Shown one piece after another: positions 47,976-51,273 of a stretch of 64,000 nucleotides of DNA; position 1 is the first letter of the stretch; each line of letters begins with the position of its first letter. The stretch is from Actinacidiphila oryziradicis (lineage in GTDB: Bacteria > Actinomycetota > Actinomycetes > Streptomycetales > Streptomycetaceae). The stretch lies in NCBI RefSeq assembly GCF_005047355.1, contig NZ_SUMC01000002.1, positions 62,001-126,000 on the forward strand, in the 5' to 3' direction. The notes beneath the pieces are model-generated. The model saw only the letters and a program-made list of their open reading frames with translations. It was not told where the DNA came from and did not search any database. Both the position numbers and the translations under genes were made by a program.

Positions 47976-48656
47976 CTAGCCACGAGAAGGGGCGACCGCG
48001 TCCTTGTTCCGCTCCCGCAGCGCGTCCATCGCTCGCTGGGTGACTTCGGAGACCGGGCCCAGCGCGGGGATCGTGATCAGGAGATCCTGGTCGCGGTAGT
48101 AGTCGATGATCGGCTCGGTCTCGCGATGGTAGACCTCCAGCCGCCGCCGCACCGTCTCCTCGCTGTCGTCGTCGCGCTGGTACAGCTCACCGCCGCACTC
48201 GTCGCAGACGCCGTCGACCTTGGGCTTCTTGTACTCGACGTGGAAGGTGTGGCTGCTGTCGTTACGGCAGGTCCGCCGGCCGGCGATCCGCTTGACGACC
48301 TCCTCCTCCGGGACCTCCAGGTCGAGCACGGCGTCGAGCCCTATGCCCTCGTCCTTGAGGATCCGGTCCAGCGCCTCGGCCTGCTTCACATTGCGCGGGA
48401 AGCCGTCGAGCAGGAAGCCGTGCGCGGCGTCCGGCTGCTCCCAGCGGTCCTTGGCCATCGCGATGGTGAGTTCGTCGGGAACCAGGTCGCCGGCCTTCAT
48501 ATAGGCCTGCGCCCGCTTACCGAGGTTCGATCCCTGGCTGATGTTCGCCCTGAAGAGGTCACCCGTGGAGATGTGCGGAATCGACAGGTTCTTGGCCAGG
48601 TACGCGGCCTGCGTACCCTTGCCGGCCCCGGGCGGCCCAACGAGGACGATGCGCAT
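47976..48656 (-). CDS. adk: Adenylate kinase
   Basis: Interconverts ATP + AMP and 2 ADP. It has 226 residues. The P-loop is GPPGAGKGTQ. ISTGDLFRANI and DGFPRNVKQAEALD (AMP and core sites) follow. The long LID has Cys-x..His and CDECGGELY, a zinc-binding type LID with a C..H..C-x2-C arrangement. Its start overlaps the secY stop by one base. Confidence 0.97.
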   Translation of the reverse strand: MRIVLVGPPGAGKGTQAAYLAKNLSIPHISTGDLFRANISQGSNLGKRAQAYMKAGDLVPDELTIAMAKDRWEQPDAAHGFLLDGFPRNVKQAEALDRILKDEGIGLDAVLDLEVPEEEVVKRIAGRRTCRNDSSHTFHVEYKKPKVDGVCDECGGELYQRDDDSEETVRRRLEVYHRETEPIIDYYRDQDLLITIPALGPVSEVTQRAMDALRERNKDAVAPSRG

Positions 48657-49969
48657 CAGCGGAGGAACCCTTCGTAATTACGCTGCTGGAGCTGGCTCTC
48701 GATCTGCTTCACCGTCTCCAGACCCACACCCACGATGATCAGGATGCTGGTTCCGCCGAACGGGAAGTTACCGGTCGCATTGAAAAGCACCAGCGCCACA
48801 GTGGGCACCAGCGCAATCAGTCCCAGGTACATCGCTCCCGGCCACGTGATCCTGTTGAGCACGTAGCTGAGGTACTCCGCGGTGGGGCGGCCGGCCCGGA
48901 TGCCCGGGATGAACCCACCATACTTCTTCATGTTGTCGGCCACTTCTTCGGGGTTGAAGGAGATGGCGACGTAGAAGAAGGCGAAGAAGACGATCAGCAA
49001 AAAGTACGTAGCGATGTAAATCGGGTGATCGCCCTTCACCATGTTGTCCCGGATCCAGTTCGCCCAGCTCGCCGTGGACCCGCTGAACTGCACCAGCAGT
49101 GACGGAATGTAGAGCAGCGACGACGCGAAGATGACGGGAATCACACCCGCCTGGTTCACCTTCAACGGGATGTATGTGGACGTACCACCGTAGGACCGGC
49201 GGCCGACCATTCGCTTCGCGTACTGCACGGGAATGCGGCGCTGAGCCTGCTCGACGAAGACCACCAGGGCCACCATCGCCAGGCCGACCGCGATCACCGC
49301 GAAGAACTCGACCCAGCCACCGGCGATCTTGCCGGACTTCTTGATGGCCCACAGCTGGGTGGGGAAGCCGGCCGCGATCGACAGGAACATCAGGATCGAC
49401 ATGCCGTTGCCGATACCGCGGTCGGTGATCAGCTCACCCAGCCACATGATCATCGCGGTACCCGAGGTCATCGTGACGACCATGGTGATCGTGGTGAAGA
49501 TCGACTGGTTCGGGATGATCTGGCTCGCCACGGTGCAGTTGCCGAAGAGGCTGCCGCTACGAGCGGTGGCCACCAGGCCGGTGCCCTGCAGGACCGCGAG
49601 CGCGACCGTGAGGTAACGCGTGTACTGCGTGATCTTCGTGGTGCCGGCCTGACCCTCCTTCTTGAGGGCCTCCAGGCGAGGGATCACCACGGTCAGCAGC
49701 TGCAGGATGATGCTCGCCGTGATGTACGGCATGATCCCAAGCGCGAAGATGGTCAGCTGGAGCAGTGCGCCGCCGCTGAACAGGTTCACCAGACCGAAGA
49801 GGCCGCCGCTGCCGCCGACCTCGGTGACACAGGTCTGGACAGCCTTGTAGTCGACCCCCGGTACGGGGATGTGCGAGCCCAGGCGGAACAGCAGCATGAT
49901 GCCCAGCGTGAACAGCAGCTTCTTGCGCAGGTCGGGCGTCCTGAACGCCCGGGCGAACGCGGTGAGCAC
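48656..49969 (-). CDS. secY: Preprotein translocase subunit SecY
   Basis: Channel of the Sec translocon in the cytoplasmic membrane. It has 437 residues with ten hydrophobic helices. LFTLGIMLLFRLGSHIPVPG is near the N-terminus, then the plug region FSGGALLQLTIFALGIMPYI and the cytoplasmic loop RRIPVQYAKRMVGRRSYGG. It is the last spc gene, but a 663-bp spacer separates it from rplO where a few hundred bases at most are usual, and that spacer contains a gene remnant. Confidence 0.97.
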   Translation of the reverse strand: MLTAFARAFRTPDLRKKLLFTLGIMLLFRLGSHIPVPGVDYKAVQTCVTEVGGSGGLFGLVNLFSGGALLQLTIFALGIMPYITASIILQLLTVVIPRLEALKKEGQAGTTKITQYTRYLTVALAVLQGTGLVATARSGSLFGNCTVASQIIPNQSIFTTITMVVTMTSGTAMIMWLGELITDRGIGNGMSILMFLSIAAGFPTQLWAIKKSGKIAGGWVEFFAVIAVGLAMVALVVFVEQAQRRIPVQYAKRMVGRRSYGGTSTYIPLKVNQAGVIPVIFASSLLYIPSLLVQFSGSTASWANWIRDNMVKGDHPIYIATYFLLIVFFAFFYVAISFNPEEVADNMKKYGGFIPGIRAGRPTAEYLSYVLNRITWPGAMYLGLIALVPTVALVLFNATGNFPFGGTSILIIVGVGLETVKQIESQLQQRNYEGFLR

Positions 49970-50086
49970 GGTGCCTCCTGCGACCCCCGCGTCATGCGCA
50001 GGGGGTAACGGTCTCGGTTATCGAAAAGGATTCAGCCGGGACCCGCGGCAGGGCAGACCCCCGCGCAAGGTAACAGCTAGGACACC

Positions 50087-50503
50087 CTACCGGGCCCGAC
50101 AGCCTGTGAGGAACATATGGCGGCCATCACTAATTCCACGCGGCCCGGTTACCCCCCCAAACAGCCTCGCCTGCCCACTGTCGGACACGCACATATAGGG
50201 CCATCTGACCCCCGCGAACGACTGCCGAAAGGTCAGCTGGCCGCGAAGGGCCAGAGGACGTCGGCCGGCCGCCCCGTTCACGCTGGTGATGGCTCGCCCG
50301 CAGACCAGCTTGTCCGGGTGCTCGTTCAACTGGCTCGCGGTGGCCTACAGATGGGCCTTGGCAGCTCCGATGGTGCCTTGCCGGTAGATCGCCGCCGTCA
50401 GGGGGGAGCCGCCGCAGGACAGGGCGGCCGTGGTGAAGCCGTCGGCGATTGGCTCCCGGTCGGCGAGGAAGACGATCCAGCGTTCCCAGTCCGCGCCGCC
50501 CAC
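50087..50503 (-). pseudogene. Unknown gene broken by an in-frame TAG, between rplO and secY
   Basis: One frame keeps coding-like GC at third positions from a GTG at 50501-50503 to 50087. It reads VGGADWERWIVFLADREPIA, ...AALSCGGSPLTAAIYRQGTI, GAAKAHL, then TAG (50345-50347), then ATASQLNEHPDKLVCGRAIT, ...RRPLALRGQLTFRQS, GVRWPYMCVSDSG. The last 100 bp lose the third-position bias. I do not recognise the family. The in-frame amber and lack of a ribosome-binding site suggest a pseudogene; the alternative is two small genes, the second starting with TTG at 50329. Confidence 0.45.
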
Positions 50504-50632
50504 GCGTGAGCATGGCAATCTCCAACCTCCAGTGGATTCGCCAGTACGCCTTCCGAGGCAACCAGCACAAAAAGAGAGGGGCCGGGCCTTCCTCACGGAA
50601 GTCCCGGCCCCCCTCTTCGTACGGTGTACCGA

Positions 50633-51088
50633 CTAGATGAGCTCGGTAACAGTGCCGCCGGCAGCGGCGATCTTCTCCTTGGCGGAGCCGGAGACCGCGT
50701 CAACGGTCACCTGCAGCGCCACGGAGACCTCGCCGGTGCCAAGCACCTTGACGAGCTGGTTCTTACGGACCGCACCCTTGGCGACCAGGTCCGCGACCGT
50801 GACGTCACCACCCTCGGGGTAGAGGGTGGCGAGCTTGTCCAGGTTGACGACCTGGTACTCGGTGCGGAACGGGTTCTTGAAGCCCTTGAGCTTCGGCAGA
50901 CGCATGTGGAGGGGCATCTGCCCACCCTCGAAGCGCGCCGGAACCTGGTAGCGGGCCTTGGTGCCCTTGGTGCCACGACCGGCCGTCTTGCCCTTGGACG
51001 CCTCGCCACGACCCACGCGGGTCTTGGCGGTCTTGGCGCCCGGGGCCGGACGGAGGTTGTGGATCTTGATCGGGTTCTCAGCACCCAT
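50633..51088 (-). CDS. rplO: 50S ribosomal protein L15
   Basis: Late-assembling large-subunit protein. It has 151 residues: the [21 protein letters not shown]-terminus, [15 protein letters not shown], then [20 protein letters not shown]. It follows rpmD by 2 bp. Confidence 0.97.
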
Positions 51089-51090
51089 GA

Positions 51091-51273
51091 TCAGTCGACC
51101 TCCTCAACCGTGACGAGGTGGCGGACGGTCTGGACCATGCCGCGGATCTCCGGCCGGTCCTCCTTGACCACAACGTCGTGCATACGCTTGAGACCGAGCG
51201 AACGCAGAGTGTCACGGTGGTTCTGCTTGCTACCGATGTAGGACTTCGTCTGCGTGACCTTGAGGCGAGCCAT
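51091..51273 (-). CDS. rpmD: 50S ribosomal protein L30
   Basis: 60 residues: [20 protein letters not shown] and [20 protein letters not shown] are diagnostic. The rpsE stop and its ATG share a base (TAATG), so translation is coupled. Confidence 0.96.

Follow-up and report, generated by a model that had tools for sequence, protein, structure and literature searches.

The window analysed here, a stretch of 64,000 nucleotides from the soil bacterium Actinacidiphila oryziradicis, carries on its minus strand rplO, the gene for 50S ribosomal protein L15 (50633–51088; NCBIfam TIGR01071, E 3.5e-44), followed downstream by secY (48656–49969; TIGR00967, E 3.6e-144). These two genes of the ribosomal superoperon are separated by a spacer of 663 bp. 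The same spacer measures 177–316 bp (median 222) in 33 genus mates, the genus set comprising 34 other genomes of which 33 yielded rplO, and the nearest of them differ by 10% from this genome in rplO and part of secY. Across 13 other genomes of the family the gap spans 158–624 bp, and since two of these spacers reach 424 and 624 bases, its length is evidently variable; the premise of the original prediction, that superoperons rarely tolerate inserts, is therefore untrue of this gap. Both of these long spacers have a strong hairpin after rplO and, as judged by eye, a promoter-like stretch before secY ending in GGTATGGTAG. Within the 663-bp spacer, a single minus-strand frame runs from 50596 to 50087 and is open but for one TAG at 50347–50345; an in-frame TAG in this place had been predicted from the sequence.

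Once both halves of this frame are translated together, with the TAG read as X, the joined product matches the Pfam family PF12241 (Enoyl_reductase; FabV, trans-2-enoyl-CoA reductase) with an E value of 2.5e-20. The score is 73.3 bits, the cut-off being set at 22.1 bits; a protein search with the joined halves had been suggested beforehand as a check. The half upstream of the TAG is recognised by PF12241 on its own (E 4.8e-15), and the downstream open reading frame alone (50329–50087) has no Pfam match. The homology covers residues 32–110 of the joined frame, which correspond to positions 50503–50267 of the window, so that the upper bound of the predicted gene remnant coincides exactly with the fabV edge. 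The NCBIfam FabV model NF010177 aligns over its positions 196–272 of 398 (E 3.4e-21, 75 bits, which falls below the whole-protein cut-off of 403 bits). In the PDB, sixteen distinct FabV-type reductase sequences align with all or part of this stretch. Pfam, NCBIfam and PDB therefore agree on FabV residues of about 196–272 of 398, and the feature at 50267–50503 on the minus strand is an internal fragment, 79 codons long, of fabV, the gene of the trans-2-enoyl-CoA / enoyl-ACP reductase.

Compared with FabV proper (PF12241; NF010177, NF043048), the fragment shares the sequence of the catalytic middle region, but it represents only some 79 of about 400 residues, around one fifth of the enzyme, and holds the TAG at 50345–50347 inside it. 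The C-terminal part and most of the NADH-binding half, both belonging to a full-length FabV of about 400 residues with an uninterrupted frame, are absent. Yx8K, which a review (PMC9260719) gives as the FabV catalytic motif, retains its spacing in the fragment's translation. Truncation, an inactivating change and the existence of intact homologues elsewhere are what characterise a pseudogene fragment, and all of them are found here.

These intact homologues are spread over the family. A protein search found fabV matches in ten of the 34 other genus genomes, the weakest of which (E 0.0086) is doubtful, and 60 of 297 family genomes, this one included, have a fabV match, with an internal stop in this genome only. 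The search for an intact gene in relatives succeeded in the three genus mates that served as positive controls, where PF12241 and PF07055, the C-terminal family, both occur in one open frame, elsewhere in the genome. In the own genome, the profile search returned neither a further PF12241 match, whole or partial, nor any match to PF07055, and the N-terminal family PF12242 produced one sub-threshold match in another gene, which on visual inspection resembles an ordinary short-chain dehydrogenase. With no whole PF12241 and no PF07055, this genome has a fabV relic and no detected intact fabV. The best named relatives of the fragment are fabV genes from Streptomyces, with protein identity reaching 78% across residues 32–110 (80 loci kept of 85 confirmed in the named collection), and its DNA is 73–85% identical to the best-scoring fabV genes of the family over spacer positions 131–367 or parts of them. 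Among the matches listed for the phage and plasmid collections (20 of 103 plasmid records in the latter), only distant or intact-type FabV relatives appear. FabV relatives with 47–49% identity over the fragment's stretch were also seen in three metagenome bins of Omnitrophota.

The fragment bears several signs of decay. In an alignment that kept 66 of 95 sequences, the column of the TAG is a sense codon encoding an identical residue in all 66 intact sequences. Out of 41 columns with at least 97% conservation, five are broken: the TAG column, three other positions, and a tyrosine ten residues ahead of Yx8K that intact copies conserve and the fragment has lost; the first column, which lies at the junction and is changed too, is excluded from this count. 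Intact copies break a mean of 0.36 conserved columns, against five in the fragment. However, one intact copy breaks six, and the measure cannot decide the matter by itself. Of the differences between the fragment and intact copies, 0.50 fall at codon positions 1 and 2, compared with 0.41 in intact pairs of like divergence; this shift is suggestive only, as 10.8% of 425 such pairs reach 0.50. GC content at codon positions 1, 2 and 3 is 0.65, 0.57 and 0.91 in the fabV part, close to the 0.68, 0.58 and 0.93 of intact fabV. This third-position value, together with the 76–80% DNA identity to the best relatives, indicates that the decay is modest.

The same composition bears on the claim that coding bias is strong on both sides of the TAG, which stands for the fabV part, the bias being weaker beyond it. 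The value of 0.91 ends where the fabV part ends, and the bias thus extends past the TAG for 26 codons only; the remainder, 50266–50087, has 0.65, 0.62 and 0.70 at the three codon positions, the weaker value at the third. A bias that spans the TAG could be taken to favour either two small functional genes or a protein made by readthrough through amber suppression. We regard both as scarcely credible, given that most of the enzyme is missing from the fragment and the downstream half matches no family. The suggested pair of small genes finds no footing in DNA comparison either, as DNA from 50050 to 50240 has no match in 149 other family genomes. Recoding of the TAG was also considered and rejected: the neighbouring rplO terminates in TAG, which makes it a normal stop here, and the fragment would be truncated in any case. 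The suspicion of a killed gene is supported, but what remains is an internal piece truncated at both ends rather than a gene halted by a single amber codon.

How this piece came to lie between rplO and secY has to be judged from its edges and from the relatives. A fabV gene at this position is absent from all 33 genus mates, 29 of them searched by tblastn and the other four judged by reading their spacers of 202–316 bp. The left edge of the homology is abrupt, at 76–80% DNA identity, and upstream of 50503 nothing is fabV-like (score 41 for the left residue; shuffle mean 37.4, maximum 48). These observations argue against a whole fabV gene that once stood between rplO and secY and was eroded in place from both ends. 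In favour of such an erosion, the insert, of about 440 bp, exceeds the 237 bp that are recognisable as fabV, and the best alignments continue weakly for some 27 bases further downstream. Outside the fabV part, the spacer aligns locally to fabV genes with a best score of 51, within the range of shuffles (mean 48.5, maximum 59). Altogether, we hold erosion in place to be unlikely, even though it is by a wide way the most serious of the alternatives.

The remainder of the insert (50114–50266, minus strand) has no detectable relative in DNA searches, and its first 27 bases or so may be decayed fabV. The left part, 50504–50632, matched three other genomes, only across 32–40 bases of the hairpin described below, which we take as chance; one weak 33-base match came from the own genome. 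Three further open reading frames over the spacer (50117–50509 on the plus strand, 50130–50570 on the minus strand and 49869–50198 on the plus strand) have no Pfam match, and an Rfam search of 49700–51100 gave sub-threshold matches only, mostly eukaryotic hairpin families placed on the hairpin after rplO.

The fabV fragment is positioned between two elements that flank this gap in most relatives. The first one, at 50564–50618 on the minus strand, is a strong hairpin with a U run behind it, a probable intrinsic terminator with a minimum free energy of −49 kcal/mol (z −7.16). All 34 genus spacers have a hairpin within 150 bases of the end of rplO, with −32.8 to −49.7 kcal/mol (z from −1.5 to −9.6, with 30 shuffles each), and so do the 13 other family genomes read. 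The hairpin sequence itself differs from that of other genus members, among which a CCGGGGATGCCC-type hairpin is common, and the stop codon of rplO is TAG here and TGA in 33 relatives; the insertion may have come with a replacement of the stretch immediately downstream of rplO. The second element is a probable secY promoter motif, TTCC-N20-TAGGGT, at 50084–50113 on the minus strand, and the TAG at 50089–50087 that closes the predicted frame is the first half of its −10-like box TAGGGT. The pattern TTC[CT]-N19-21-TA[AG]NNT precedes secY in 30 of the 34 genus spacers, counting the present one, and in ten of 13 family spacers, three being devoid of it; the four genus spacers lacking it make up most of one divergent clade. 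It arises in eight of 1000 shuffles of the 3' part of the own spacer, and since it was from these same spacers that the motif had been picked out by eye, its counts in them are partly circular. A scan for consensus promoters and terminators reported neither hairpin nor motif; its consensus is strict and misfits both the motif and the long stem, and the comparison of relatives was used instead. The literature search on secY transcription in Streptomyces gave nothing relevant within the texts available to it.

We infer from this comparison that the hairpin and the motif act as terminator and promoter, and the simplest reading would be that secY stands separate from the spc genes regardless of the insert. 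The suggestion that the insert uncouples secY from spc transcription is thus not borne out: the hairpin is found in 34 and the promoter-like motif in 30 of 34 genus spacers, 33 of which are without the insert. A role of the insert in regulating secY, for instance as upstream promoter DNA or leader RNA, could be imagined from the fact that its end is the start of the probable secY promoter, but it appears very improbable, as the insert lies upstream of the motif, hence not within the secY leader, and relatives have hairpin and motif without it. It is just as improbable that the spacer would be an insertion-tolerant spot collecting foreign pieces in Streptomycetaceae, with the fabV piece co-opted as upstream control DNA of secY. 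An assembly error would be conceivable in a draft of 389 contigs with 6.25% contamination; we give it almost no credence, since the contig, 330,768 bases long, has the two normal neighbours and the promoter-like motif where they belong, and the fragment copies nothing else in the assembly.

That the fragment is a non-functional fabV relic, whether it landed here as a piece or was eroded in place, is highly probable. The reading that we prefer, with a probability of roughly 0.7, is that a stretch of fabV was inserted into a permissive spacer, in this lineage specifically, and is now decaying. A piece of about one fifth of the gene would have entered the rplO–secY spacer, probably by illegitimate recombination, or the fragment would be the leftover of a larger insert; it would then have decayed without function, acquiring the TAG and losing several conserved residues. 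Its persistence would be explained by its location downstream of the probable ribosomal-operon terminator and upstream of a separate probable secY promoter, where it presumably disturbs neither.

Such a history is that of ordinary intergenic pseudogene fragments in bacteria, which are likewise truncated at both ends, interrupted by a stop codon, deprived of conserved residues and lineage-specific; the difference is that this one lies inside a ribosomal superoperon, in a gap with an apparent terminator and promoter of its own. The fragment documents that foreign DNA can be accommodated in the rplO–secY gap of these actinobacteria, since secY seems to be served by a promoter of its own, located behind a terminator-like hairpin. 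The unannotated stretch before secY is accounted for as a fabV relic, an ordinary one with probably little effect, and its significance is small overall; only an influence of the fragment on secY expression would raise it.
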